Origin: Arbacia lixula
Taxonomy: Eukaryota > Echinodermata > Echinoidea > Arbacioida > Arbaciidae
Length of the DNA stretch: 64,000 bases
Direction of reading: 5' to 3'
Assembly (NCBI GenBank): GCA_963669155.1
Contig: OZ022597.1
Span: 14,155,965 to 14,219,964 of the forward strand
Shown: positions 646 to 44,558 of the stretch, one piece after another
How positions within the stretch are numbered: the stretch's first letter is position 1
Layout of the letters: every line of letters starts with the position of its first letter
The notes under the pieces: model-generated
The model's input: the letters and a program-made list of their open reading frames with translations, nothing else
Told to the model about the DNA's origin: nothing
Database searches by the model: none
Translations under genes and position numbers: made by a program

Positions 646-2407
646 ATAAAATTTGCATACATGAAGAAAATGTCTATACAGACAACTTTAAAGACCCATA
701 TTTGTCCTAAAGTGTAAATATCATTAAATATTCACATGATCACTTCAAGGAAATTAATTGATGCAATTACACAAAACCTGTTTCTAAAAAAAGTTACATT
801 TACAGTCTACACTGTAAAGTGTAAAAGATCAAAAGAAGGGAGTTGAGAGAGGACAAATGAGAAGAGGGAAGTTACAGGGAGGAGCATAAGCTTAACTAGG
901 ATATAAAGTAAAAGGAAAATGAGAGAAAGAAAATGGGAGCGAGAGAGAAAAATAAAAGTGAAGGCTGTTGAAAGAGGTTAAGCTACAGAAGAGAGAAGAC
1001 AAATATTCATGTAGAGACTGGCACGACAGTCGAGACTGGCACGACTGGGAGAAAGATTTAGTCTCCACCCTCTACTGGCCTTTCTATGAGCAGAACGACC
1101 GTTCACTATGAATGCAATACGTCCAGAATGCAAATGACGTCATAAGAAAGCGTAGCAAAAACCCGCACTATCCTCAATATATTTCTTGACCACGTTTCTT
1201 TTAAATTATCAGTCAAGAATCCTTCTGTAGTGTGGTTATTTGTCCTTTTGAATGATCTTTTGTTTAGTTTATCTTTAGTCGTTTTTGTTGTTTAGTTCAA
1301 TGAAATTGGTATTTAGTTCAGTTCTGTTTGGAATTATGTTCGTATTCATCTTATCAGTAATTATCCTACTTCTCTGATCACCTTTATTCCTTTTCCTATT
1401 CAGATGTGCTTATTCATTCCGTCCTCACACCTGGCTATTTTGTTGAACATTCTTGATTACATAATCACTCAGATCATTTACGCATCATCATCCTTGTTGC
1501 TTTCATTGGTTGATTTGTTTAATGGGGTTCCTCCATTTTGTTGGTCTGCTTCATTCCTTTTATTTACATTGGTTATTTTTTACTTAATTTGAATATGCAA
1601 ATGTATTTATGTTAATTATGTTTATGCGAGAAAATCGTGCTGTTAGCAAAGAGCCTCAGAATAAATAAGTGCACCTCAGGCATGTCAGGACTTAAAGTCT
1701 GTAAGACCTATTTTTTGTGTTCCATCATGTAGTTCAAATGAATGTAAAACTATACGGCCAAAAATCTTTTAATCTACTGCTAACTGGCCAAGAAGTGGTA
1801 CGCATATTACACCTAGTAATAGTAATAACAGCGTGATCCATACTGTAAATCAATGAAAAAAATCTCGGAACAAGATGTATTTGAACATGCAATCTTCTGT
1901 ACAGGGCATTTCATTCATTTACAGGATGGGACATTGCATTACTTTAGAAAGCCCTTTCACTCAAACGTATGGAAACAGTTGTAGTCATGCCGTCGGTGCG
2001 GCTGTATTGGAAAAACAGCCTGTAAATAAGATTAATAATATTTCTTTAATGGGGACGGGGTAGGGAAGATAAGGACAATGGTGGTCGGTGTAATAGGTAT
2101 AGGGAGGCAAGGTTGGGACAGAGGTGGAACCAGGAGGATATCTAGATAAATGGGAATGAATGAGGGAAGCAGCAAGAGCATTCAGGTGAAGACGTCAAAG
2201 GAAAGGCGACAGAGGGAGAAAACAAATCCGATGAGAGATGAGGGAAGATGATGAAAATAAAGAAAACGCGTCAAATGAGAGAGAGAGAGAGGAGGGGGGT
2301 GGGGAGATGTGGCGAGTAGAAAGTGTTGTAAAAAGATGAGAGGAGGAGAGAGATAATTAAGCAAAAGGGAGAGAAAAGAGAGATAGACAGGTAAAGGAGG
2401 GAGAGAA

Positions 2408-2438
<31 letters not shown>

Positions 2439-2930
2439 AAGAGAAAGAGAGAGAGAAGATAGAAAGGGGGCATGGTGGTAGTAAAATGGCTTTTAAAAAT
2501 ACATACATCTATTATACCCAGGGGGCAATACAGGTTTACCTTACATGGACTGTTCTAAAAGGTTGATTGGTATCAATGTGTTTGGTAGACCAGTCTGCAT
2601 ATTTTCTAGGTGGACTTGCTCTTGGAAAGAAATGGCAACGATTTTTCAAAATGGCCGCCGTGAAAATGTGGTATTGACCACTATTTAAGATGGCATTTGA
2701 ATGGCACATTTTGCCACATCATAAAGTGGGTAACATTTCCTACTAAACTACATTTGTTGGGCTTTGTGTTGATTCTTATAACAATTCTAGGCAACGAATG
2801 TGAATTTTTATCATATTTCCCATTTTTGTTTTAATTTCATGGTAATACACATCCCTTCATACTTCCAGAAAAATATAGATTAGCGAGATTAGCGAGCAAC
2901 TATAGCACATATCTTGATATGAAGTTAAAG
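646..2930. other. No gene seen; purine-rich tracts
   Basis: No gene or recognisable transposon protein was seen. It contains a GA-rich stretch (about 840-1010), a 17-base direct repeat (GAGACTGGCACGAC twice near 1014-1050), and a (GA)n/(GACA)n simple-sequence block at about 2278-2470. A 108-codon minus frame across that block is a product of the simple sequence. Confidence 0.6.
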
Positions 2931-3027
2931 TAATCTAAGGTCCATACCTTGACCTTTATAGTCAAAGCCGCTTTTTGTACATTTCTGTTCCTATGCCATA
3001 TATTTATATACCATGTTTGAACGGTAC

Positions 3028-3580
3028 ATTGGAATTATGTGTCCTACATATTTTGAAATAAAGTTTCTTTATTTTTCTCTCAGCACCGGTAAGCTCCGCC
3101 TCCAGAATATCCTCCAACTCAAGATTCTTCTTGTGACATCATCAAAGGAGGCAATTAATTAAAATTAGCAGGATAATTTAGAAAGAACTTATGCACAAAC
3201 TAAAGACTGCAATAACTACCTGCAAGTCCTTATAATAGCATTACGTGTTTATACAATGCAATTCTTTCCTTGGCATAGCTAGCACATTTCTGATATAACG
3301 ATTATTCCCACATGACAGGTTGTTAGATGGTATTGTGTTTGTGTGAAGACATGTATATAATGCTCTTGTGTGGGCAGGTGGATGTACATGTAGTCATTGC
3401 AATGTTTAGTTTGTGCATAAATTCCGCCTTTTATCCTGCTACTTTCTACCTTTGATGATGTCACAGGGGGAATCTTGATTTGGAGGATATGCTGAAGGAG
3501 GGGCTTATCAGTGCTGAGAAAAAAAGAGACATTAGCTAGGAAACATTAGGTAGGAAACATAATTCCAATGTACATTCATA
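3028..3580. mobile_element. Foldback element, inverted arms of about 140 bp
   Basis: The left arm (about 3028-3175) and right arm (about 3434-3580) are inverted copies. The left has TAAGCTCCGCCTCCAGAATA and the right carries its diverged reverse complement, and the match continues outwards through the CATTGGAATTATG motif and its complement. The left arm is also repeated in direct orientation at 4177-4275. It is non-coding; the superfamily is unknown. Confidence 0.6.
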
Positions 3581-3989
3581 GTGATTTTGTTATAAAGATA
3601 TTAAGTTACATAAAATAAAATCAACATACATTTTCATTTCATAGGGCCTTTAAGTGCAAGGATATCCATCCTTTTGAACAAGGTTTGATTCCGCCACTTA
3701 ATACTCATGGCTAGCAGGAGCTCTCAACAATATAATGTACACCCGATTGCGTCACGTTCACCTGGATTTATAATAGGTCATACACATTTATATACATGCA
3801 TAGGGTTCAGCTTTCACTGCTGAACTTTTAATTCTGTCACTAATTGCTTGTTATGTAAGTAATAAGGACAAACGAATACGAAATTTGTTACTTTTCAGTG
3901 CTGTCACCAGTTTTTTTTCAAAGGGGGTGCGTTTGGGGGAAAAAGACACAACGATTACCAATTCTGATGTCAGGCAGTGCTCGCCCATC

Positions 3990-4700
3990 TAATAGACCTA
4001 TAGCCCCCCCCCCCCCCTCGGCGACGTACCCCCCCCCCCCCCCCAAAAAAAAATAAAAAAATAAAAAAATAAAAAAAAAAAAAATAAAAAAAATAAATAA
4101 ATGAATAAATAAATAAATAAAAAGAAAAAGTAAAAAAAAAAGAGAGAAAAAAGGTCCCCTTCTAAAAAACAAAACTTTTTTCTCAGCACTGGTAAGCTCC
4201 GCCTCCAGAATATCCTCCAACTCAAGATTCTTCTTGTGACATCATCAAAGGAGGCAATTAAAAAAATTAGCAGGATAAATCTAATAGACCTATAGCCCCC
4301 CCCCCCCCCCCCCACCCCCGGCGACGTACCCCCCCCCCCCCCCCAAAAAAAAAAAAATAAATAAATAAAATAAAAAAAAATAAATAAAAAAAATATAAAT
4401 GAATAAATGAATAAATAAATAAATCAAAAGAAAAAGTAAAAAAAAAAAAAAAAAAAGGTCCCCTTCTAAAAAACAAAACTCTCCCTGGTGACGGCCATGA
4501 TATGAATATGGATCTACTAATACTGATAGTATTTCGCCTAGATCTTTTTCAAAAGAGCCCTCAAGTATCCCTACCCCCCCCCCCCCCTCCGGTTTTGTTT
4601 TGTTTTGTTGTTGTTTTATATTTTTAATTTTTTTTAATTTTTTTTTTGGTTCTGAAGGGGGGTGCGTTCGCACCCTCCGCACCCCCCTGGCGACGGCCCT
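3990..4700. repeat. Two-unit poly-C/poly-A repeat
   Basis: Two tandem units (3999-4173 and 4279-4484) share the order CTAATAGACCTATAG, poly-C, GGCGACGTACC, poly-C, an A-rich (AATA)n block, then GGTCCCCTTCTAAAAAAC. They are separated by a copy of the left arm of the neighbouring foldback element. A third poly-C and T-rich block runs to 4700. Long minus-strand frames here (up to 164 codons) encode only Phe/Gly/Leu-rich low complexity. Confidence 0.75.
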
Positions 4701-7035
4701 GCTTTTTGAGATGGAAATACTAGCTTGGGCGCGGCTGGACACGTTTTTCATGTTACATGTACTTGTCTGAAAGGAACGTTTCATGCAACTTTTTAATGAA
4801 ATATGATGCGGAACGTTGTAAAATTGTAAGTTTTATGTTGCAACTTGATATCATCATTGTAACAATAGTCCCCGATTGAATCTTTATAGATGCATCGTAG
4901 CAGGCATTACATGTCACAACTGCGCAAGTATATGGGGTGAACATATTTCCCCAAATTCTTCTGTGCATCCGATTTTGTTTATACGTCAATAATCCAGAAA
5001 ATGAATCACACGGCTGATGGATATCCATGTACACGATGGCAAACTCACACCTGCAGAGATACGGGCACTTACAAAGATAAAACACCACACAACTCACATA
5101 GGTCAATGTTGTAATTGTACTGGGCGTCGATAACTGTAAACCGTTTTTTGTACAAGATAAACTGCAGTGTGCATGGGTATTGTATGTATTACACGTGAAC
5201 AAATTCACAGGTGGTTATATTCAGCATGGTCGTGTCAATGTTCGCGTGGAGAAAACTGCAGGCCGTGTCTACACCTACACGCGCATACCACGCGCCCATC
5301 GACCTACGCACTTTCCCTCGCACACCATATTCACTGACTACCGATCGCAAGTGCCTCACGCATAAGTTTTTTGTTTAACACACGGGGTAGATATAAAAAC
5401 ATGACGCCAATGAAAACGAGAAAAGGCGTAAGGTGCTTGTAATGTGTTTGCCCTTCACAGGATTGCAAGAGAGGAATAGTTTGTAGTAATAATATTATAT
5501 AACCAGCCGCCATTTTTTGTTTGGAGTCGTTTATAGAAATCCTACAGTTGCTTTGTCATTTCCTTTCTAGAAGCGTCTATAGACAAACTTTTTACTTAAG
5601 AGATTATTTCATTCTCCTATGTGATCATGGTGATATCAATTGTAATATGCTTACCTAAAATTCCTCTCAAACTACATTAAAGACCAAGCATTGCATTGGT
5701 TGATTTTCAAACTGTTTCTTTAATTTCTCTCATTGTTTGCAGCAATATTAATATAGAAGTTTTGACTGCACCCCATGCATTGCATTACATATCAAATCCT
5801 TTTACGCCTTTTGGACCCCTTGCGCGCGCCAATGCTCAGCGGCGCACGCACAGTCGCGCAAGCGCAGCCCAGGTACGCTAGGCGGCCACTAGCACTGCAT
5901 GCACTGCGTGCCTGCTGAGCATGCACTGCATTTTGTTTGTGCTTTTTACAGCAAACTTGATGTGGACGTGACCTTGCCCAAAATCATACTGTAATTGCTG
6001 CCATAAATGTATCCTAGATCTATTCCTTGAATTCCATAGCCCACTTAGCCTGACCAGAGCGTTGTGTGCATTCATACAGCATTCAACCAGAACCAGAATT
6101 AGATCTACATTAGATCTAGACCGATAATAATTGTCTAACCTCGCTCGCTATACCTGCGCGCTGCAGTGCAATGCATAGCATTGCGTGAGGCCAGCGCGGC
6201 CAGCCCGGGCCCGGCCGCGCCATGCATGGTGATATGCGTATTAGGTACAGTACTAGACTGGCCCGAATATGACAACCTCTGCCATTGGCTTGTGGTCTGA
6301 CACATGTGTATTTAAAGCTAAAACGCGAACGCAAAGTTTGACCAATGAACATAATTCTTACATCATCGGAAAGCTTAGAAAAAACTGCACAATGACTCAT
6401 GGGAAGTAAGCTGAACGATACCATCAAGCGAAATGGTTCGAGTGGGAAATCGTTTGGAGTGACATAAAGTAGGACTTTACGTTGAGTTTCATCCTATTTT
6501 TGATATGAAAGTGATATTTTTGACCCCAAAACGCGAATGCAATTGACATCCATGTAAAGATTTCAATCATTTAATGGAAATAATATGATATCATCAGCAA
6601 TATATCATTGGAAGTAAAGATAAAAGTGTAAACTTTTTTCAGGAAAGACAAATTTGTTAACAAAACATGTAATTTCCAATGGTATTTCCATAGAGTGGTA
6701 GACACGCGCGGAAAGCACGCGCAGTTAGTGTCCCATAGGATTCGATATGGCCAGAATGTATTTTCTTTCTTTTTTTAAAAAAACAAAGAAAACAGTGTAG
6801 CCCTGATTTTGATTTCTGCAAGTTTCATGTCATTATGCAGGAATCAAACATAAAGAGCGCCATCTTGACCAAATGACATCGATATAACTGCTCAGATTCG
6901 TGCCATGTGCAAAAGATTTTTCACTTGGCAACGATCGAGATGGCGGAAGTACGATGATTGAGTCCAGCATAACAGTACAGTGAACTAATTGTTGTTCATG
7001 TACGCAGGGAAATGAGAGAGACATGTCCCTGATGT
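4701..7035. other. No gene supported
   Basis: No recognisable gene. The longest frame is a 151-codon minus-strand ORF (4753-5208), Cys-rich and unlike any family I know; it may be chance. A CpG-rich patch with GGCCGCGCC and repeated TGCATGCA motifs lies at about 5820-6240. Confidence 0.5.
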
Positions 7036-21618: not shown

Positions 21619-23397
21619 ATATCAAATTCAAATTCAAATTCAAATATAAATTTATTCAGCAATTTGTAAAAACATACAATATACAATAAACAATACATAT
21701 AAACAATTTTGAAAGACATTTAACAACGAATAAACACAAATCACACATAACCATGCAGCCTTTTGAAAAAAGTGCCTTGGACATAAGAAGGCCACGAAGA
21801 CCTTATTACATTGGTCCACATAACTCAAGATGAACATTTACATGCTACACACCCACACAGATACACCCATACGCACACATAAAACACATACAAATTACAT
21901 AATTGCACAATTATCTTAAGCTTTTTTACGTATATGCATCAAATAAAAAGATCTTGAGTCGGCGTTTAAAAGAATTAAGTGTTTGGCTCTCTCGAATGTG
22001 ATTTTGAATATCATTCCAGACGACGGGACCTTTATAAAAAATAGAATTATGAAAAACAGTAGTACGGGGTTTACGCAAGTGAAAATTGTTGGCATGGTAT
22101 TGTGATTATGGTAACTGCAGTTGAGGTTAAAATGACTTAGCAAAGTCTGGAAGGAGTTTTTATAACATAAATACATAAATATTGCTATTTGGTATAATCA
22201 TCGACATAAAACTTTAAGATCATAAGATATTGATTTGGAATGGGCAAGATAGACACAGTGCGATATAACCCTTATTGCATTCTTTTGCATGTTTAATATT
22301 CTTGTTATATTGGCCCAGGATGTGATACAATAATTGATATGAGGAACAAATAATGTATTGTACAACAACAGAAGTATGTCCTTAGGTAATGATTTTAGTC
22401 TATATAATATACCAACTGTCTTTGACAATTTGTTGCATAAGACACCGATATGTTCATAACTTTTCATCACATATTACACCTAAAATTTCAAATGAGGAAC
22501 ACGCTGGATAGTGTGATTGTTTACAGTTAGTCTAACATTACTACGTTCAATATGCTGTTTAATAAAAAAGAAAAAAAAACCTGAACTGTGTCTTCTTCCA
22601 ATTTAAGACGAGTTTATTCATATTCAACCATTCAATAAGTTTTCGAATTTCAATTTCAAAACCACTAGAAAGTGTATTAATTTTATTATGTGACATGAAT
22701 ACGCTGGTGTCACCTGCAAACTGTATCAGCTCTAGCTTTGGTGTAATAAACATGATAAAAGGCATATCATTGACATATAGAATAAATAAAAGAGGGCCGA
22801 GGATTGAACCTAGGGGCACTCCACATCTTACTGATTTAAAATTTGACTGATTTTTTTCGAATTTCAACATACTGCTTCCTATTATTCAAGTAGCTATGAA
22901 ACCAATTTAGTAGTGTTCCACGTATGCCATACAATGGAAGTTTGTCTGATAAGATTGTATGATTAAATGCATCAAAAGCCTTGGTCAGGTCAAGATAGAT
23001 ACCAATCATAATTTTATTTTCAGTAAAATTCAGAGTACGATATATAAATTCTGTTAACGCGGTAGATGTGGAGTGACCCAATCTAAATCCATATTGGTTT
23101 TTATTAAGAATATTTCACTTTTCCAAGAAATTGAAAAGACGATTATACATACACCTTTCTATGATTTTTGAAAAAAGAGGAAGTATTGACATAGGGCGAT
23201 AATTTGCGACATCTTCTTTTGAACCAGACTTATATATTGGAACAACTTTTGCAATCTTCAATTTTCTGGCATAATACCACTTGACATTGAGAGATTAAAT
23301 ATTTCACAGAGAGGGTAACAAATAGTATGTTTACCTTTCTTTACTATGTCAACTCTTATTCCATCAAAACCTGGGCTTTTGTTATTTTTCATTTTAC
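21619..23397 (-). mobile_element. 5'-truncated non-LTR retrotransposon (CR1/L2-like)
   Basis: Inserted in repeat R20 with its 3' end at the left. The 3' tail is a short (TTTGAA)n-type microsatellite (about 21623-21648), as in elements of the CR1/L2/RTE type. The 5' end stops within the RT domain. The empty site is preserved in the neighbouring repeat copy. No clear target duplication longer than about 3 bases was seen. Confidence 0.8.
21926..23397 (-). pseudogene. Non-LTR reverse transcriptase remnant
   Basis: The frame starts with NNKSPGFDGIRVDIV, a fingers-domain motif. It continues GIYLDLTKAFDAFNHTILSD (catalytic Asp), GVPLGSILGPLLFILYVNDM, and QFAGDTSVFMS, where the usual FADD/YADD box reads FAGD. 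Next come LVLNWKKTQF and the thumb region LKSLPKDILLLLYNTLFVPH. The C-terminus reads FYKGPVVWNDIQNHIRESQT to a TAA at about 21926. Several frameshifts and stops break the frame. Loss of a catalytic Asp plus truncation make it inactive. I favour CR1/L2 over other clades because of the tail and motif spelling, but a tree would be needed. Confidence 0.85.
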
Positions 23398-24593: not shown

Positions 24594-25847
24594 ATGGTAA
24601 TGGCAACTGCTGATTGGACCATCGGTCTGTTGATCATGGCTGTGTGCAGAGGCTCAGCAAGCGAGACAACAAGTAGCGAGTTCCGTTGGCTCACGGGAGA
24701 GTCGACGTCAAGCTACGGAGCAACACCGGGTCACGCCCGGGGAACGGAACTGTCTCGGCTTGCTGACACACCCACGATGACTCCATCCGTAGAGAGCCAC
24801 ACAACTCTGCCACCCCTCAACCAGACCTACGGGACGGATGATGATCGAGTGACCGCCGAGTCCATGTGGGATTGGCTACCGATTAGGTGGGCGTGGTGGG
24901 TGATGCTGCAGATGGTAGTGGCTGTGGTCGGCATCGTGGGAAACCTCCCCGTGATCGCAGTCCTTTTCCTTCGCCGAGACCACATTCGTCCCACCGATAC
25001 CCTGATCGGAGCGCTCGCCGTCGCGGATTTCTTGTCGTCAATCTTCATGATTCCGCTGCCGTCTCCGGCCCGAGTCCCACCGACTGTCCTTGGGGATGCG
25101 CACTGCAAGGTGGTACGACCTGGTGCTCTGTTGTTTACTTGCATCTTTGCCTCTTCCTACACCCTCACGCTCATCCCAGGCATCAAATACATCGCCGTCG
25201 CCTACCCGCTCCATTTTAAGCGGTGGGTGACTCGCCGTGTGGTGACTCTTTGTATCGGCCTAGTATGGATCGCTGCGGTTGTTGTCCAGTCAATGCCGTA
25301 TACATTAAACGGGGTAAGCCAAGAAACGTCCCAGTGTACCAGTGTGATTCCTTCTTTCAATACACAAGTTGTCATCGGCGTTTTTGTATACTTCGTAGAG
25401 TTTGCCATTCCAGCTACACTTATGCTTACGATGCAGTTACTAACGGTACGCACCCTACACATTCAGTCCCGTATTAACTTCGGCGCCGCCAGCGGCTCTG
25501 AATCCACCCCATCATCGCGACACACTGTAGCCAAATGGCGCGTTATTCACCTGCTCATAATTGTAGTCTTGATGTTCATTGTTTGCTTGGGTCCGGTTTC
25601 CACCGTCTTCCTGCTCATCAATCTTAGACTCGTATCAGAAACTATTCTTCACAGCACCCTGGTCCACGTGCTCCTGCTTCTCTCGTTGTGCAACTCGTGC
25701 GCCAATCCCATCATCTACACGGCGCGCTACCCGCAGTTCCGTGCCGCTTTAAGGGGTTTGTTGACCTCTACAACGCGCACGAACGCACCTGTGTTTGAAG
25801 AGATCGAGAGCAAGTTCTCACCTTCAGCCGTGCAGGAAGAAGCCTAG
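24594..25847 (+). CDS. Class A (rhodopsin-like) G-protein-coupled receptor
   Basis: A 417-residue uninterrupted frame with seven hydrophobic segments (about 102-126, 134-155, 172-197, 215-235, 256-283, 316-341, 353-376). Class A landmarks are visible: GN with N117 in TM1, LAVAD with D145 in TM2, C171 and C248 for the extracellular disulfide, W225 in TM4, P273 in TM5, FxxCxxP (F328-P334) in TM6 and NPIIY (371-375) in TM7. The roughly 100-residue Ser/Thr-rich N-terminus has a possible signal peptide (residues 9-23) and an N-glycosylation site at N76. The D/ERY position reads I197-K198-Y199, so both the acid and the arginine are replaced. The third loop is short and the tail lacks a palmitoylation Cys. 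The ligand is unknown. Intronless CDSs of this kind are common among lineage-expanded invertebrate receptors. The ATG follows a splice-acceptor-like CCTACAG by 9 bases, so upstream non-coding exon(s) are likely. Confidence 0.92.
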   Translation: MVMATADWTIGLLIMAVCRGSASETTSSEFRWLTGESTSSYGATPGHARGTELSRLADTPTMTPSVESHTTLPPLNQTYGTDDDRVTAESMWDWLPIRWAWWVMLQMVVAVVGIVGNLPVIAVLFLRRDHIRPTDTLIGALAVADFLSSIFMIPLPSPARVPPTVLGDAHCKVVRPGALLFTCIFASSYTLTLIPGIKYIAVAYPLHFKRWVTRRVVTLCIGLVWIAAVVVQSMPYTLNGVSQETSQCTSVIPSFNTQVVIGVFVYFVEFAIPATLMLTMQLLTVRTLHIQSRINFGAASGSESTPSSRHTVAKWRVIHLLIIVVLMFIVCLGPVSTVFLLINLRLVSETILHSTLVHVLLLLSLCNSCANPIIYTARYPQFRAALRGLLTSTTRTNAPVFEEIESKFSPSAVQEEA

Positions 25848-30562: not shown

Positions 30563-30640
30563 AAGAGCATCTATGTCAGGAATCGAACTCATGACCCTCA
30601 GGTTATCAGTCTGACGCTCTACCAACTGAGCCAACAGACC
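30563..30640 (-). tRNA. Degenerate tRNA-Ile(GAT)-like sequence
   Basis: The minus strand reads GGCTCAGTTGGTAGAGC (perfect D-arm), an anticodon loop CTGATAA (anticodon GAT) on a 4-of-5 paired stem, and a B-box-like GAGTTCGATTCC. The acceptor pairs about 6 of 7 with two wobbles, but the T-stem is mostly unpaired. It is most likely a tRNA pseudogene or SINE head. Another tRNA-derived module lies 70 bases away on the same strand. Confidence 0.35.
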
Positions 30641-35055: not shown

Positions 35056-35231
35056 TGTTACAGGTTACGATCTTACATTTGTAAGATCTACATGTTTTGC
35101 GGATGAATATATGTTCGCGGGGGGGGATCCGCCGAGTCTGAACGTGGAATCCATTAAAGAAGGCACGACTTAACTCGACTTGTCTGATATTGTGCTTTTA
35201 TAGCGTTAGAACTACAAAGCTACCCGTAACA
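35056..35231 (+). repeat. 5' LTR
   Basis: Begins TGTTACAGGTTACGATC and ends CTACCCGTAACA, with 6-bp terminal inverted repeats. Contains a TCTTACATTTGTAAGA palindrome and an 8-G run. No mismatch to the 3' LTR was found by eye. No clear TATA box or AATAAA inside. Confidence 0.95.
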
Positions 35232-35234
35232 AAT

Positions 35235-35252
35235 TGGGGGCTTGTCCGGGAG
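35235..35252 (+). other. Primer-binding site, tRNA-Pro type
   Basis: TGGGGGCTTGTCCGGGAG begins 3 bases after the LTR. It matches the complement of the 3' end of animal tRNA-Pro, TGGGGGCTCGTCCGGGAT as I recall it, with two differences. This is the expected priming position for minus-strand synthesis. Confidence 0.75.
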
Positions 35253-35847
35253 AGAGTTTTGTAGGAGTTTTCTACATGGTGGCCTGTCGGGTTGGATGGA
35301 TTCTTGGTGGATTTCACGTTGTTTCTCCCGCTGTGTTGACGGTTCGCTCTCACACAGTGTATTGCATGTCTCGTACGTGTTATACGGTACGGTATGTATG
35401 TAGTGGCAGTGCTATCCGTTCGTATTGGCTGTAGGTAGAAATACCGTACAGTGTTTGGCTTTATACATTGCGTGATCGTAGTGTGTTGGCTGTTGGGCAG
35501 AGTTTTGTCTCTGTGTTACGCGCAGTGTGTTTCTGTGTGTCGGGGGTGGCGGTTTCTCGCTGACCTCATGTGGCCTATTGGGTGCATGATCGCGGTTGTG
35601 CACTGGTGGTTTTCGCCGTATACATTGCTGTGTATGTAAGTTAATGTATTATATGGGTCATGATTTTTGCCCTTTGGGTGTAATGTACATGCGTACGCTG
35701 TGGATCGTTCGGGTCGCGCGTGGATATTTGCGTGTTGTGTATGGTAGGCTCGTATAGCAAAATAGGGCTTGCAGTACAGTGTCGAACATTCATGGATAGT
35801 TTTGTGTGCGTGTACATTTCTAGTTGCGTGTTTTAACGTAGTACTAG

Positions 35848-36020
35848 GTACGTCTTTCACGGCGTTGCTGGCGTTTCGGCCAGATCGGTGGTTTCAGCCA
35901 TCGGGTTTGTTCTCGGTTTTCGAGAGTTTGGTACGTCTTTCACGGCGTTGCTGGCGTTTCGGCCAGATAGGTGGTTGAATTTTCAGCCATCGGGGTTTTC
36001 TTGGGTTTCGAGAAAGTTTG
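35848..36020 (+). repeat. Tandem duplication in the leader
   Basis: Two units (35848-35930 and 35931-36020) begin GTACGTCTTTCACGGCGTTG and continue through GGCGTTTCGGCCAGAT and CAGCCATCGG. The second has a few extra bases. It lies just upstream of the gag start, in the region where packaging signals usually lie; that role is inference. Confidence 0.85.
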
Positions 36021-36150
36021 AAGTGGATTTTTTTATTTATTTATTTTTTTTTTTTCAACTGGACAGTTGGATTTTGTCAACTTGTAAGTCATTTTAGATC
36101 TAGTGTTCATTGATACATGGTATTTTTAGATTGCGGTTTCGGCTTTGAGG

Positions 36151-39100
36151 ATGGAGGCGTTTTCCATTGATAGGTTTACGGATAATCCCACTGTGGACGA
36201 GTTGATGACTTTGCGTAAGTCAGACTTGTTGCTTGTTGTTGATCGATATAAAGTTTCTGCGGTAAAAAGCACTCAAAAGAAGTCAGACATTTTGCGACAA
36301 ATCATTCGATGGTTTGTTGATGAAGATATCTTTCCCGTACATGCGTTGAGTAAAATCCCACCCCGTTCTGATGGAACTCCTGATATGGAAGTTCGGTTAC
36401 GTGAGTTGGAACTTGAGAAAGCTCGTATTGATCTGGAAAGAGAACGAGTTGCGTTGGAAATGACGCATGCGCAGATTGCTCAAGGTTGTAGAAGGGACGT
36501 TGACAATTTTGATATCACAAAGCATGTAAGATTGGTGCCTGATTTCGATGAGAGTGATGTTGATCGGTCTTTCTCGCATTTTGAACAAGTAGCTGAAAGC
36601 ATTGGTTGGCCGAAGAATAACTGGGCAAGTTTGCTGCAAACTAAACTGAAAGGAAGAGCCTGTGCTGCTTATGCAGCCCTGTCAAATGATGAAGCTAAAG
36701 ATTATGACACAGTGAAAAATGCAATACTGCAAGCATACTCGCTGGTACCTGAGGCGTACCGACAAAAATTCCGAAACATGCGAAAGCAGGACACGCAGTC
36801 GTATCGCGAATTCGCAAAGTCGAAGCAAATGTCGTTCGATCGTTGGCTCCGGTCGATTGAAGCAAACGATGTAGAAGCGGTGAAGCAAGCCATCTTGCTT
36901 GAAGACTTCAAGCGGTCAGTTCCGACTGACCTGCGCGCGCATTTGGAAGAAAAAAAGTGTTCGAAGCTTGCAGATGCAGCCACAATGGCGGATGAATATG
37001 CCCTAGCTCGTGGTGTGAACAGTTACGTAGGTCAAAGTAGGCCTTATCAGAATTCTTTTAAGCCTAACAAACCTCAGGTTAGCACCACGTCTGATTCTAA
37101 GACTAGTAAAGGTGGTAATAGTTTTGACTCAGAAAATCAGAATGTTCAGGGGACTCTGTGCTATTACTGTAAACAGGTAGGTCATGTCAGGTGGAAATGT
37201 CCGAAATTACAGAAAAGGACATCTGACGAAAAGGAAGCTGGCAAAAAAGCGTTTCCGAATGGGTTCGTAGGAAACCCACTGATGTCAGGAGGGGAATGTA
37301 AACACACCCCTGATGAGGGTGATGTTCGTACTGATGTCACAGTCCCACAGGTGATAAAATCTGCGGATGCGGATCAGATCAAATCACAGTTCGAACCATT
37401 CATATCTACTGGATATGTGTCGATGGTAGGCAGTAATGATGCAAAGAAAGTGACGATTTTGCGTGATACTGGCGCTGCAAAGTCATTGATTGTCGCCCAC
37501 CTGTTACCGTTCGATTGTAGAAGCGCTTCTGGTACAAGTGTCGTGTTACAGGGTGTTGAAGGTGGATACGTTGAAGTTCCGTTGCACACGGTTGATTTAC
37601 ATTCTAACCTTGTTTCGGGTACTGTAGAATTGGGGGTGAGGCAGTCGCTTCCAATGGATGGTGTAGGTCTCATCCTCGGCAATGATTTGGCTGGAGCAAA
37701 GGTAACTGTTCCTATTGTGAGTGCTGTTCCGACACCAAGGGAACAAGAACAAACTGCTGCGCTGGTGGAGGAATTTCCTAATGCATTTCCAGCATGTGCT
37801 ATCACACGTTCTATGGCAAAGAAAGAGGACTCCGAAAAGAAGGCGAGTGAAGTAGATGTTGACTTGAGTGATTCTTTCTTGGGTCGATTGGTTGGTGACG
37901 AGCCTGTCGTGAACGTTGATGGGAATGTGAAGACGAACGGTGTGGAGAAGAAGGCTGAATCATTGACTCTGAATAAAAGCAAGTTGTTGGAAGAACAAGG
38001 TAAAGATCCTCCATTGATTTCCTTGAGTGAGAGAGCAATTTCTGAGGAAGAGGCTTCAACTCTGCCTGTGTGTTACTACAAGAAATCAGGCATCCTGATG
38101 AGGAAATGGAGGCCACCGGATGTTCCTGCGGATGAGGTATGGCAAGAATTCCATCAAATTGTGGTTCCCTCTGTATACAGGCAGGACATCATCAGTCTTG
38201 CGCATGAAGCTCCACTTGCAGGACATTTGGGAGTTCATAAAACTCAAGAGAAAATCCTACGTCATTTCTTTTGGCCGGGGCTGCAAAGTGATGTTGCAAA
38301 GTTTTGCAAACGTTGTCATGCGTGTCAGGTCATAGGGAAACCGAATCAGAAAATCCCAGCAGCGCCATTGAAACCCATACCGGCCTTTGATGAGCCATTT
38401 GCAAGGATCATTGTGGACTGTGTTGGTCCTTTGCCGAGGACAAAGGCAGGGCATGAATATTTGTTGACAATCATGTGTGCTGCAACAAGGTATGTTGAAG
38501 CAATTCCATTGAGGCGCATTACAGCGAATAATGTCACAAAGGCGCTGGTCAAATTCTTCACCACTGTTGGTCTGCCAAAAACAGTACAATCTGATCAAGG
38601 TTCAAACTTTATGTCCAAGGTGTTCAATCAGGTGTTAGAGGAACTGGGCATAAAGCATGCTACTTCTAGTGCATACCATCCAGAGTCTCAGGGAGCACTG
38701 GAACGATTTCACCAGACGTTGAAGAATATGCTGAAAACGTATTGCATGGAGACAGAGAAGCAATGGGATGAAGGAGTGCCTTTGTTGCTGTTTGCGGTGA
38801 GAGATTCCGTGCAAGAGTCGCTGGGTTATAGTTCTTTTGAACTTGTGTATGGACACTCGGTTCGTGGGCCTCTGAAATTGCTGAAAGAGAGACTGATGTG
38901 TGATGGCGAACAATCGAATGTGCTGGAGTATGTGTGCACTTTCCGTGAAAGGATGCTCAAGGCATGGGAGGTGGCACGTGAGAACTTGTCTGATTCACAG
39001 GAGAAAATGAAGGCTAGGTATGACAAGAAGTCCAAGGAAAGACATTTCATGCCAGGTGATGAAGTCCTAGTGTTGTTGCCAGTTGTCGGTCATGCACTTC

Positions 39101-40758
39101 AGGCTAGATTTTCCGGTCCATACACGATTGCCAAGAAAATAGGTGATGTCGACTATGTTGTGAAAACTCCAGATAGGCAAAAGAAAAAACGCTTATGTCA
39201 TGTGAACATGCTGAAACCGTATGTTCGTGAAAGTGAGGGGAAGGTACGGCCAGTTCTCAGTGTTGTAGAAAATGTGTCACAAAATGAAGAAGCGAAGGTG
39301 ATGTGCAAAATTGAAAAACAGGACACACAAGTGAAGCTGAAAAATTCTGATGTCCTTGCACACATTGATGACAAATTGACTCATTTGACTGTACAGGAAG
39401 GGAATGACGTGAAAAAACTCCTCGATGAGTATCCAGAGTTGTTTGGTGATGTTCCCTCTCGTACAGACGTGGTTGAACATGATGTTGATGTCGGTGACAC
39501 GGCTCCGATAAAGCAGTCGCCATATCGTACGAATCCAGAAAAAAGGAAGCATCTGGAAAATGAAATTGAGTACATGATGCAGAATGGCATCATCGAGCCA
39601 AGTAGTAGTGCATGGTCGTCCCCGTGTATTCTTGTTCCGAAGCCAGATAAAACGTTTCGGTTCTGTACCGATTACAGAAAAGTGAACGCTCATACGAAAA
39701 CTGACTCATTTCCGATCCCGCGTGTAGATGATTGCATCGACCAGATTGGTAAAGCGAAGTACGTTAGCAAATTTGATCTCTTAAAGGGATATTGGCAAAT
39801 TCCTTTGACAGAAAAAGCAAAAGAGATCTCCGCATTTGCCACTCCACAAGGGCTGTATCAGTATACAGTCATGCCATTCGGCTTGAAAAATGCACCTGCG
39901 ACATTTCAAAGACTAGTAAATAGCCTTGTTTCAGACCTCCAAGGTTGCGAAGCCTACATCGATGACATTATTGTCTACAGTGAGGAGTGGAATGGTCATG
40001 TGCAGATAATTCAGGCGTTGTTTGAGAGATTGTCGGCTGCTCGGATGACGGTCAATTTGGCTAAGAGTGAGTTCGGTGGTGGAAGTGTTCAGTTTCTTGG
40101 TCACGTTGTTGGCTCTGGTCAGGTTCGACCAATCTCAGCGAAGGTGGAAGCAGTGGTGAACTTCCCGATACCAACCAACCGGAAGGAGCTGATGCGATTT
40201 CTTGGCATGTCGGGATACTACAGGCGCTTCTGTCACAACTTCTCTGATGTTGTGGCCCCGCTGACCAATCTACTTCGGAAGGAGGTGGAGTTCTTCTGGT
40301 CCAGAGACTGTGAGGATGCTTTCAACCAGGTGAAAGCTCTCTTATCTACCGGCCCGGTGTTGATGGCGCCAGACTTTACCCAGCCGTTCAACTTGATGGT
40401 GGACGCCAGCGATGTGGGTGCAGGTGCCGTACTCGCGCAGCGAGATGCCGAAGGAGTCAACAGACCTGTGTCGTTCTTCTCCAAGAAGTTCTTGAAGAAT
40501 CAGCAAAATTACTCGACTGTGGAGAAAGAGACTCTAGCGTTGATCCTTGCACTTGAACACTTTGAGGTGTATGTCAGTGGATCGCAACATCCTGTCAAAG
40601 TACTCACTGACCACAACCCTCTGACGTTCCTCAATAAAATGCGAAACAAAAATCAGAGACTGACGCGGTGGTGTCTGCTGTTGCAAGAGTATAATCTGGA
40701 CATTAGCCATATTCCAGGAAAGGACAATGTCGTGGCCGACGCATTATCTCGCGTGTGA
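36151..40758 (+). CDS. Gag-Pol polyprotein (Gag-PR-INT-RT-RNase H)
   Basis: One frame of 1,535 codons from the first ATG to TGA, with no frameshift or stop between gag and pol. Numbering from that ATG: Gag about 1-330; CCHC zinc knuckle C337, C340, H345, C350; aspartic protease with DTGA at 439-442; integrase with H685/H692 and C722/C725, then D756, D815 and E851 (D-D35-E); GPY/F module at 989-991 (FSGPYTI). RT follows, with D1209 in FDLLKGYWQIPL and YIDD at 1269-1272, then RNase H with D1418, E1460 and D1487 and a C-terminal HIPGKDNVVADALSRV. Integrase upstream of RT is the diagnostic oddity and places it with Gmr1-like gypsy elements. All catalytic residues appear intact, so the product may be active. 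It sits antisense to the interrupted DUF829 pseudogene. Confidence 0.95.
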   Translation: MEAFSIDRFTDNPTVDELMTLRKSDLLLVVDRYKVSAVKSTQKKSDILRQIIRWFVDEDIFPVHALSKIPPRSDGTPDMEVRLRELELEKARIDLERERVALEMTHAQIAQGCRRDVDNFDITKHVRLVPDFDESDVDRSFSHFEQVAESIGWPKNNWASLLQTKLKGRACAAYAALSNDEAKDYDTVKNAILQAYSLVPEAYRQKFRNMRKQDTQSYREFAKSKQMSFDRWLRSIEANDVEAVKQAILLEDFKRSVPTDLRAHLEEKKCSKLADAATMADEYALARGVNSYVGQSRPYQNSFKPNKPQVSTTSDSKTSKGGNSFDSENQNVQGTLCYYCKQVGHVRWKCPKLQKRTSDEKEAGKKAFPNGFVGNPLMSGGECKHTPDEGDVRTDVTVPQVIKSADADQIKSQFEPFISTGYVSMVGSNDAKKVTILRDTGAAKSLIVAHLLPFDCRSASGTSVVLQGVEGGYVEVPLHTVDLHSNLVSGTVELGVRQSLPMDGVGLILGNDLAGAKVTVPIVSAVPTPREQEQTAALVEEFPNAFPACAITRSMAKKEDSEKKASEVDVDLSDSFLGRLVGDEPVVNVDGNVKTNGVEKKAESLTLNKSKLLEEQGKDPPLISLSERAISEEEASTLPVCYYKKSGILMRKWRPPDVPADEVWQEFHQIVVPSVYRQDIISLAHEAPLAGHLGVHKTQEKILRHFFWPGLQSDVAKFCKRCHACQVIGKPNQKIPAAPLKPIPAFDEPFARIIVDCVGPLPRTKAGHEYLLTIMCAATRYVEAIPLRRITANNVTKALVKFFTTVGLPKTVQSDQGSNFMSKVFNQVLEELGIKHATSSAYHPESQGALERFHQTLKNMLKTYCMETEKQWDEGVPLLLFAVRDSVQESLGYSSFELVYGHSVRGPLKLLKERLMCDGEQSNVLEYVCTFRERMLKAWEVARENLSDSQEKMKARYDKKSKERHFMPGDEVLVLLPVVGHALQARFSGPYTIAKKIGDVDYVVKTPDRQKKKRLCHVNMLKPYVRESEGKVRPVLSVVENVSQNEEAKVMCKIEKQDTQVKLKNSDVLAHIDDKLTHLTVQEGNDVKKLLDEYPELFGDVPSRTDVVEHDVDVGDTAPIKQSPYRTNPEKRKHLENEIEYMMQNGIIEPSSSAWSSPCILVPKPDKTFRFCTDYRKVNAHTKTDSFPIPRVDDCIDQIGKAKYVSKFDLLKGYWQIPLTEKAKEISAFATPQGLYQYTVMPFGLKNAPATFQRLVNSLVSDLQGCEAYIDDIIVYSEEWNGHVQIIQALFERLSAARMTVNLAKSEFGGGSVQFLGHVVGSGQVRPISAKVEAVVNFPIPTNRKELMRFLGMSGYYRRFCHNFSDVVAPLTNLLRKEVEFFWSRDCEDAFNQVKALLSTGPVLMAPDFTQPFNLMVDASDVGAGAVLAQRDAEGVNRPVSFFSKKFLKNQQNYSTVEKETLALILALEHFEVYVSGSQHPVKVLTDHNPLTFLNKMRNKNQRLTRWCLLLQEYNLDISHIPGKDNVVADALSRV

Positions 40759-41995
40759 ACTTTGAAAGACAAACTGTAAATATAAAACGGAACAATATGT
40801 AAAAATGTAACTTTGTGTGAAAAGTGACTGTGAACACTAACAATGATATGACAAACACACAAAGTAAATGAACTCATCACAAACGCGATGATGAATACTA
40901 AGGAGACCACGATACGAACTATAAGGGATCGAAACACCAGTTGCTTGATGTATTTGTTTTTATACATGTACAAGTTTGTATTGCATGTACCATCAGCATT
41001 CAGTATTGTTTCAAAACACAAGCAAAAAGAACAGAAGAAATATGAATTTCATGTTTAACTGGTAAAATCATTATGCCGTTATGTATTGGTACAACTGCAC
41101 ATGTGTGTGTTAACTTTTGGCCACATGTTTTGTCAACTTGTTTATGGCTGTTTGGCACTAAGTACTGAATGCTGAATGCATAGAACGTTTTGACACTGTA
41201 TTGTACAACTGTGTTGTATTTACATGTTACACCTTATAAGATGCATGTATTCATGAACATTTCAGTGAAAAGTATATTTGTACTTGTTTAATTAGTTATT
41301 GAGATATGTTCAAAATCATGAAAGTTGGAACGAAATATTGACAGGAATTGTGATACCAGAATCATGACAAAACAAGGTACAAGTTGAATAGAACCAAAAA
41401 TGATTTGTGAACTGTTATTTGACAAACACTTTTAAAACTGATAAATAACGTTATGGTAAAATCTTCTTGGATGATGCCTTTATTGTGTTGACGTTTATGC
41501 GAGTACATAAATGTTTGAATGTACTCTCAAAAAGTTATTAACGTTTCAAGAAGGAAACCAATGAGAAGTTTAGTTGTATTCATTGTCGATACAAGAAGTG
41601 TTTTATGCTGTGTTTATTCAAAATGATGAAGTTGAACGATAGACAACTTAAAGATACACATGCATGTTAATAAGTATATGACGTTGCCGGAATTATGTAC
41701 GTTGCACTTATGTTTTTGGCAATGAGATTTGTGATGTTTATTGTACAAACATGTAGTTCCAAGGCTTCCTCACAAGAAATGTGCTTAAATTGTTTATGAC
41801 AAGTGCACGAGAAATGTGCTTGAATTGTTTATGAGAAGTGCACGTTATGTTTCATTCCAAAATTAATCAGTTGAACGTAACGAATACCACTAGACACAAA
41901 ACAAGTAAGAAGAAAAGTTTTATTCATCTGAACGTGTACTCTCACATGCAAACGTAACTGAGTGCATTTTTTGTAAGCACATAAATGCACTCTTT
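40759..41995 (+). other. 3' non-coding region of the LTR element
   Basis: About 1.24 kb, AT-rich, with no frame suggestive of env. Includes a 35-bp tandem duplication (GAAATGTGCTTAAATTGTTT at 41776, repeated at 41811 with small changes). The function of this long trailer is unknown. Confidence 0.7.
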
Positions 41996-42006
41996 AAGGG
42001 GGGAGG
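41996..42006 (+). other. Polypurine tract
   Basis: AAGGGGGGAGG lies immediately before the 3' LTR, the expected primer position for plus-strand DNA synthesis. Confidence 0.85.
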
Positions 42007-42182
42007 TGTTACAGGTTACGATCTTACATTTGTAAGATCTACATGTTTTGCGGATGAATATATGTTCGCGGGGGGGGATCCGCCGAGTCTGAACGTGGAA
42101 TCCATTAAAGAAGGCACGACTTAACTCGACTTGTCTGATATTGTGCTTTTATAGCGTTAGAACTACAAAGCTACCCGTAACA
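42007..42182 (+). repeat. 3' LTR
   Basis: 176 bases, reading identical to the 5' LTR including the 8-G run. Followed by TCTCCACC, which does not repeat the sequence before the 5' LTR. Confidence 0.95.
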
Positions 42183-42482
42183 TCTCCACCAATGAGAGGG
42201 ACCTTTAACTTTTACATTACCATTTCCTGAAAACCACATTGGCGAACTACACATCTTCACGCCAATGCTCACGGGAGAGTTCACCCTTCAAGCTCACCTT
42301 GACGATGCTATCCATGGTGTACTTGTTGGTCAGCCAATGGTAGGTCTCTGTAACCCTCTTGGTGACAAACTGCGTAAAGGAGTTGTTGGCGTCCTACGAG
42401 TAGATACCCTCGTAGCTATCCCTGGAGAGAATACAACTGTACAGGATCTGAGCAACGATGCGGTAACGCACCGATGCATACC

Positions 42483-44558
42483 CAGGACGAAAAACCAGTA
42501 GAAACCAGTAGAGAAAAACCATTAGAATCTCTACTGGTTTCTACTGGAAATTTTCTACTGGTTTGAATATGGAAAGTGAAATGATTTCCAGTAGAAACCA
42601 TTAGAAAAATACCAGTAGAATACCAGTAGAAACCAGTAGAAATCTCTACTGGATCCAATACAAGACCAATAGAAGACCAGTAGAATACCAGTAGAAACCA
42701 GTAGGAATCTCTACTGGATCCAATAGAAGACCAGTAGAAACCAGTAGGAATCTCTACTGGATCCAATAGAGCTTCCTACTGGTTTCTACTGGAATTTTCT
42801 ACTGGTTTGAATATGGAAAGTGAAATGATTTCCAATAGAAACCATTAGAAAAATGCCAGTAGAATACCAGTAGAAACCAGTAGGAATCTCTACTGGATCC
42901 AATAGAAGACCAGTAGAAGACCAGTAGAAACCAGTAGGAATCTCTACTGGATCCAATAGAGCTTCCTACTGGTATCTACTGGAATTTTTCTGCTGGTTTG
43001 AATATGGAAAGTGAAATGATTTCCAGTAGAAACCATTAGAAAAATATCAGTAGAGTGCCAGTAGAAACCAGTAGCAATTTCTCCTGGATCCATCAGAATA
43101 CCAGTAGAAACTAGTAGAATACCTACTGGAGCCATTAGGAGACCAATAGGAATCAAAATTAAAAATATTGATGAAATATCGATTTCAAATTAGTATATGA
43201 TAATCCGAATTATGACATATTTTCTTAACGTTTTAACCTAATCCTATCCTATCCTATATTTATTCCTATTCTATCCTATACCTATCCTACTTTCTACTCT
43301 ATCCTTCACAGACTTTCATATATATAGCAGTACGGTTATAAGGTTCATAAGATATTGGTTACTCTAACTTACATTTAAGAAGATCATTTTTGTTGTTGTT
43401 ATCATTATTGTCTTCACTTAAGTAGGTGACATTCACTATTTTATGTTTAAACTTGAAATCATTACTTGGTAAAATTCCTTTTATCTGGTTAGGTGGAGGT
43501 TATCTATCTAAAAGTACAAAATTAGGACACGTAAATACATGCATGAATATTCATGAGCATCTCTATTTCTATTGGTTTCTACTGGTCTCTAATGGTTTCT
43601 ATTGGTTTATTTTTCACACTCCTTTTCCAAACATTATATCTCACTAGTTTCTATTGGTTTCTACTGATCTCCAATACCAGGAGAATTCACTGGTCTCTAA
43701 TGGTTTCTACTGGTTTGACTTTGTATTTTTCACACTCCTTTTCAAACCATTAGATCTCACTGGTTTCTATTGGTTTCTACTGGTTTGACTTTGAATTTTT
43801 GACACTCCTTTTCAAACCATTAGGTCTTACTGGTTTCTATTGGTTATACTGGTCTCCACCAATAGAATTCACTGGTCTCCAATGGTTTCTACTGGTTTGA
43901 CTCTGTATTTTTCACACTCCTTTTCAAACCATTAAGTTTCACTGGTCTCTAATGGTTTCTCCTGGTTTGACTTTGAATTTTTCACACTCCTTTTCAAAAC
44001 ATTATATCTAACTAGTTTCTATTAGTGTGAAAAAAACAAAGTCAAACCAGAAAAAACCATTAGAGACCAGTGGATTCTAATGGTATTGAAGACCAGAAGA
44101 AACTAATAGAAACCAGTGAGATCTAATGGTTTGAAAAGGAGTGTAAAAAAAAACACAAAGTCAAACCAGTAGAAACCATTAGAGACCAGTGGATTCTAAT
44201 GGTATTGAAGACCAGTAGAAACCAATAGAAACCAGTGAGATCTAATGGTTTAAGAAGGAGTGTGAAAAAAACAAAATCAAACCAGTAGAAACCATTAGAG
44301 ACCAGTGGATTCTAATGGTTTCTACTGGTCTTCAATACCATTAGAATCCACTGGTCTCTAATGGTTTCTACTGGTTTGACTTTGTTTTTTTTCACACTCC
44401 TTCTCAAACCATTAGATCTCACTGGTTTCTATTGGTTTCTACTGGTCTTCAACACATTAGACTCTACTGGTTTCTACTGGTTTCTACTGGTTTGATTTCG
44501 TAGTTCCTCTTCAGACCAGTAGACTCTACTGGACCAGTAGAAACCAGTAGACGATCTC
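42483..44558. repeat. CCAGTAGAAA minisatellite with alternating orientation
   Basis: About 2.1 kb of degenerate 10-base units (CCAGTAGAAA and ATTAGAAACC variants). Higher-order units recur, such as TGAATATGGAAAGTGAAATG at about 42564, 42808 and 42994. Blocks switch strand: mixed to about 43150, mainly TTTCTACTGG between 43560 and 44020, mainly CCAGTAGAAA from 44040 to 44310, then reversed again to 44510, so long inverted repeats centre near 44020 and 44320. An AT-rich interval (43160-43540) interrupts it. It replaces roughly 150 bases of the exon present in the other DUF829 copy. Confidence 0.9.

Follow-up and report, generated by a model that had tools for sequence, protein, structure and literature searches.

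An apparently young, structurally intact Gmr1-clade Ty3/gypsy LTR retrotransposon in an echinoderm genome

The Gmr1 clade in the literature

The source paper on Gmr1 of Gadus morhua is said to be that of Goodwin and Poulter (2002), and that on SCAN is reportedly the paper of Emerson and Thomas (2011). The Gmr1 clade consists of gypsy elements with a copia-like pol order, in which the integrase (INT) stands before the reverse transcriptase (RT), as given in excerpts of PMC2582038, PMC8220671, PMC6238403, PMC2774666 and PMC3587641. The vertebrate SCAN domain is described as derived from, or strikingly like, the Gag of Gmr1-like elements (excerpts of PMC3424704 and PMC4592553), and among frog Gmr elements SCAN is reported in over half only (excerpt of PMC4131045). 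Crustacean members of the clade are presented as the first in protostomes (excerpt of PMC3587641), one annelid family has been assigned to the clade (excerpt of PMC8220671), and Gmr1 is counted among the clades that occur in several phyla (excerpt of PMC8556966). However, the annelid analysis made in PMC8556966 itself did not find the Gmr1 clade, according to the same excerpt, and this counts against a wide presence in annelids. A published description of the element reported below was neither found nor excluded by our literature search.

The window, that is, the whole 64-kb stretch of Arbacia lixula DNA that was analyzed, contains one such element. We are highly confident that it is a Ty3/gypsy LTR retrotransposon of the Gmr1 clade in an echinoderm genome, present as a young copy with its structure intact. 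It was assigned to the Gmr1 clade because it has the INT-first order, the gypsy-type proteins and the SCAN-type Gag of the published clade.

Organization of the element

The coding part is a single open reading frame (ORF 36145-40758, first ATG at 36151) with no internal stop codon. The frame was scanned against Pfam as three consecutive pieces, and the domains were found in the order SCAN, Integrase_H2C2, rve, Integrase_p58_C, RVT_1 and RT_RNaseH. The E-values of these six main domains leave no room for chance matches. The features of the frame are as follows.

36151..40758, + strand: single gag-pol frame from ATG to stop, 1,535 aa
36748..37011, + strand: Gag capsid region, SCAN domain PF02023 (E 1.5e-14)
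37159..37206, + strand: CCHC zinc knuckle (CYYCKQVGHVRWKC), by motif
37465..37476, + strand: protease active site DTGA at residue 439, by motif
38164..38331, + strand: integrase H2C2 zinc-binding domain, PF17921 (E 3.7e-20)
38395..38703, + strand: integrase core with D756, D815 and E851 (DD35E), PF00665 (E 2.3e-15)
39115..39219, + strand: integrase C-terminal GPY/F module, PF22938 (E 2.1e-11) and PF24626 (E 3e-7), with GPY at residue 989
39634..40107, + strand: reverse transcriptase, PF00078 (E 6.8e-35), with YIDD at residue 1269 (39955-39966)
40372..40692, + strand: RNase H, PF17917 (E 7.4e-36)

The SCAN region of Gag also gave a weak match to the ZNF24 SCAN structure 3lhr (E 0.0028). In Pfam, the CCHC knuckle gave two matches that fell short of their cut-offs, one to zf-CCHC (E 0.015) and one to zf-C2H2_10 (E 0.0013). 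No protease family was listed in the Pfam scan of the frame, and the protease was identified from its DTGA motif. The in-frame GC3 lay at 0.39-0.47 from gag through protease (PR), INT, GPY and linker to RT, and was 0.62 in RNase H (RH). As GC3 is alike across INT and RT, their border shows no break.

Untranslated stretches, a leader of 919 nt and 1,248 nt on the 3' side, lie around the frame, and the element is bounded by a pair of LTRs.

35056-42182, + strand: whole element, 7,127 bp
35056..35231, + strand: 5' LTR, 176 bp, TG...CA with TGTTAC/GTAACA ends, 100% identity to the 3' LTR
35235..35252, + strand: tRNA-Pro-like primer-binding site, starting 3 nt past the 5' LTR
35847-35893 and 35930-35976, + strand: direct repeat within the untranslated leader, two copies of 47 nt, 98% alike
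41996..42006, + strand: polypurine tract AAGGGGGGAGG, adjoining the 3' LTR
42007..42182, + strand: 3' LTR, paired with the 5' LTR

The identity of the LTR pair (176/176 bases) ceased precisely at the LTR ends. The primer-binding site shares 16 of its 18 bases with the MLV PBS-Pro sequence given in an excerpt of PMC4587795. No match to the LTR, the coding parts or the 3' stretch was detected in the rest of the 64-kb window (E 0.01). For the leader, the matches in the window were confined to itself and to short stretches out of its T-rich run.

These results bear on an earlier note on this DNA, which had described an uninterrupted polyprotein with protease DTGA, integrase, RT and RNase H, the residues D756/D815/E851, a GPY/F module, the RT motif YIDD and identical LTRs. 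The stop-free frame and the Pfam order agree with that description, the motifs were all located, with the triad at exactly the residues named, and the LTRs are indeed identical. The SCAN match in Gag, the primer-binding site, the polypurine tract, the lengths of the leader and the 3' stretch, and the missing clean target-site duplication described below are additional to it.

Other features were observed in the window. Repeats of the CCAGTAGAAACCAGTAG type, some direct and some inverted, are clustered at 42482-43120, approximately 300 bp past the 3' LTR. A fragment of another reverse transcriptase is present at 22562-22885 on the - strand (RVT_1, E 9.9e-10); the RT of the element gave no match to it by tblastn. 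A rhodopsin-type GPCR is encoded in one open frame at 24594-25847 on the + strand, and its nearest relatives are galanin-/allatostatin-receptor-like proteins of sea urchins. Its 38 best rows, bar one, came from Diadema antillarum, D. setosum and Lytechinus (35-48% identity), and the next named relatives were from Asterias (starfish) and Saccoglossus (acorn worm). ARAGORN predicted a tRNA-Ile (GAT) at 30567-30639 on the - strand, and Rfam likewise scored a tRNA there, at 33.8 bits (cut-off 29). As a guess, this tRNA is perhaps part of a SINE.

The integrase-first order and its relatives

To see the element among its relatives, the integrase piece and the RT-RNase H piece were queried separately against the databases. 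At E < 1e-3, 1,971 INT homologues were obtained among 7,985 scored candidates and 4,732 RT-RH homologues among 7,977, and the best 120 of each were examined. The two lists do not overlap and comprise 240 sequences. Both the INT and the RT probes matched in 104 of them (40 from the INT list and 64 from the RT-RH list). In all of these 104 the integrase lies ahead of RT (40/40 and 64/64), a uniformity that is partly due to selection, as the listed relatives are the nearest 120 per query with near-copies included. GPY/F was ahead of RT in 145/145 of the listed relatives that have both. The 120 closest RT-RH matches include a protein of the coral Paramuricea clavata (P0273). Three relatives, P0014, P0253 and P0308, bear the database names of Campylobacter, the MAG of a gamma-proteobacterial symbiont and the ciliate Halteria, and they are probably animal contamination. 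No relative was confirmed among viral contigs in two scans with the patterns used.

A contrast set of eight loci from prokaryote MAGs was taken from a scan of GTDB contigs. The order was INT-first in L001 and RT-first in L002-L006. No integrase match was found on L007 or L008, and these two loci were left out of the order groups.

L001 shows the same GAG-PR-INT-GPY-RT-RH order as the window element, with identities of 65.9% in INT, 64.9% in RT, 62.4% in RH and 41.6% in Gag; no LTR pair was found on its contig. L001 occupies 718-5145 of NJBF01000089.1. This contig is assigned to a Heimdallarchaeota MAG, but the DNA most likely comes from an animal and was binned with that of an archaeon.

The order could be an artefact if an assembly join or a chimera had brought together integrase and RT halves from two elements, a finding that the earlier note had itself named as one that would refute its reading. 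Among our observations, the missing clean target-site duplication would fit a rearrangement, though at the LTR ends and not at the INT/RT border. In contrast, one open frame continues across that border and has the GPY/F module ahead of RT, the order is common to all 104 listed two-domain relatives, and L001 repeats it on a separate contig. Furthermore, the INT and RT distances covary (r = 0.943, with 0 of 1,000 permutations as high) over the window element and 68 proteins in which both domains reach 150 aa or more, and this argues against a chimera or an assembly join. We therefore regard such an origin as hardly credible. INT and RT have travelled together, and a join or two-element chimera is unneeded as an explanation.

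Trees were made from the window element, database relatives and GTDB contigs. In the RT-RH tree (22 rows, with 13 of the 26 eligible proteins of the RT-RH list taken in), a branch supported at 100/100 separates the INT-first sequences from the five RT-first gypsy contigs that form the contrast, of which L005 and L006 are almost one sequence. The INT tree of rows with the order seen, for which 22 of 56 eligible database proteins were used, all showing both INT and RT, gave the same split from five RT-first rows with support 99/99. The support was 100/99 when the two longest outgroup rows were removed, and 99/93 in a broader INT tree of 32 rows, which is superseded because 11 of its 25 database rows taken as INT-first have no RT in the entry. 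The outgroup of these trees has several long branches, and the composition of some outgroup rows is unlike that of the others. Domains of the SCAN type are present in the precomputed annotation of four of the 120 listed INT relatives, namely those whose entry extends to Gag, and a domain scan of these four chosen relatives confirmed SCAN.

The element might instead belong to a Gmr1-lookalike gypsy lineage in which the integrase moved independently of Gmr1. The trees contain no named Gmr1 sequence, and the RT-RH of the window element is just 55-64% identical to its 120 best matches, which would suit such a lineage. However, the INT-first sequences form one group in both the RT-RH tree and the INT tree, and the SCAN-type Gag, which is tied to Gmr1-like elements in excerpts of PMC3424704 and PMC4592553, occurs in the window element and in the four INT relatives that reach Gag. 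An independent origin is thus very unlikely in our judgment. Membership in the Gmr1 clade remains our reading, and the grouping of the element with INT-first relatives, apart from the RT-first gypsy contigs, in both trees bears out its earlier placement in a Gmr1-like group. The group had also been called one of deuterostomes. An echinoderm host agrees with this, whereas the limit it sets to the clade is outdated, as crustacean and annelid members are reported in excerpts of PMC3587641 and PMC8220671.

Target site, mobility and likeness to known systems

An LTR retrotransposon is transcribed from LTR to LTR, translated into one polyprotein, packaged, reverse transcribed and integrated. The element in the window would be expected to follow this cycle. 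Its RNA would run from LTR to LTR, and one Gag-Pol polyprotein would be made from the single frame and cut by its own aspartic protease at predicted cleavage sites. The SCAN-like capsid region would assemble the particles, and RT-RNase H would synthesize cDNA, primed by a tRNA-Pro-like primer and by the polypurine tract. Once freed from its position ahead of RT, the DDE integrase, which carries the GPY/F tail, would then join the cDNA to a new site. Judged from the open frame and the identical LTRs, activity is possible.

The flanks of the element show no clean target-site duplication: TGTC/TCTC match at 3/4 bases, CTGTC/TCTCC at 1/5 and GCTGTC/TCTCCA at 2/6. A mutated duplication is possible, although it is not the simplest reading when the LTRs are identical. 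Recombination, deletion at one border, or assembly collapse of the LTRs would also account for its absence. This could be a real Gmr1 element of which the present copy is immobile, or was placed by recombination or repair instead of by its integrase. The unmatched flanks (1/5 and 3/4) beside identical LTRs speak for this, whereas the intact frame, the identical LTRs and a possible 4-bp duplication with one altered base speak against it. We consider this a substantial possibility, although less likely than not. A further reading is unlikely: that a fresh Gmr1-clade copy without a proper duplication entered in a non-ordinary way, by cDNA recombination or end-joining, or that an INT-first integrase cuts its target unusually.

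The element is an apparently complete echinoderm example of a gypsy clade with a rearranged pol and a capsid ancestral to vertebrate SCAN. With its open frame and identical LTRs, it would suit tests on the release and use of an integrase made before RT. Knowledge of the Gmr1 clade itself is unchanged by it.

As in Ty1/copia, the integrase is ahead of RT in the window element. However, membership in Ty1/copia was rejected, because RT matches RVT_1 and RNase H is of the gypsy type. With Pfam up to E 0.1, no copia-type RT family was listed for the RT piece, and the list held only RVT_1, RT_RNaseH, RT_RNaseH_2 and the integrase-tail families p58_C and SH3_Tf2-1. In the PDB, RT-RH was matched best by the RT-RNase H of yeast Ty3 (4ol8, E 1e-85). 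For the integrase piece, PFV integrase was the best PDB match and Ty3 the next in kind (Ty3 integrase, E 9.7e-28). The gypsy-type Pfam families and the Ty3 match agree with the earlier description of gypsy-like proteins in a copia-like order. In Ty3 (7q5b), INT (1063-1389) comes after RT-RH (583-1008), and the window element has the reverse order. The conventional Ty3/gypsy order of Mag, Osvaldo and Ty3 was rejected because the integrase does not follow RNase H.

According to an excerpt of PMC11117352, the Gmr elements of Tetraodontiformes encode one Gag-Pol product of 1,506-1,634 aa, a range into which the 1,535 aa here fall; they measure 6,058-6,465 bp and their LTRs 337-518 bp, whereas the window element has 7,127 bp and LTRs of 176 bp. 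Gmr1 of cod (Gadus morhua) was likened to our element by published descriptions. The PR-INT-RT-RH order, the gypsy-type proteins and the SCAN-like Gag of the Gmr1 clade are all common to the window element, and the host here is an echinoderm. The window element is an ordinary new member of this known clade.
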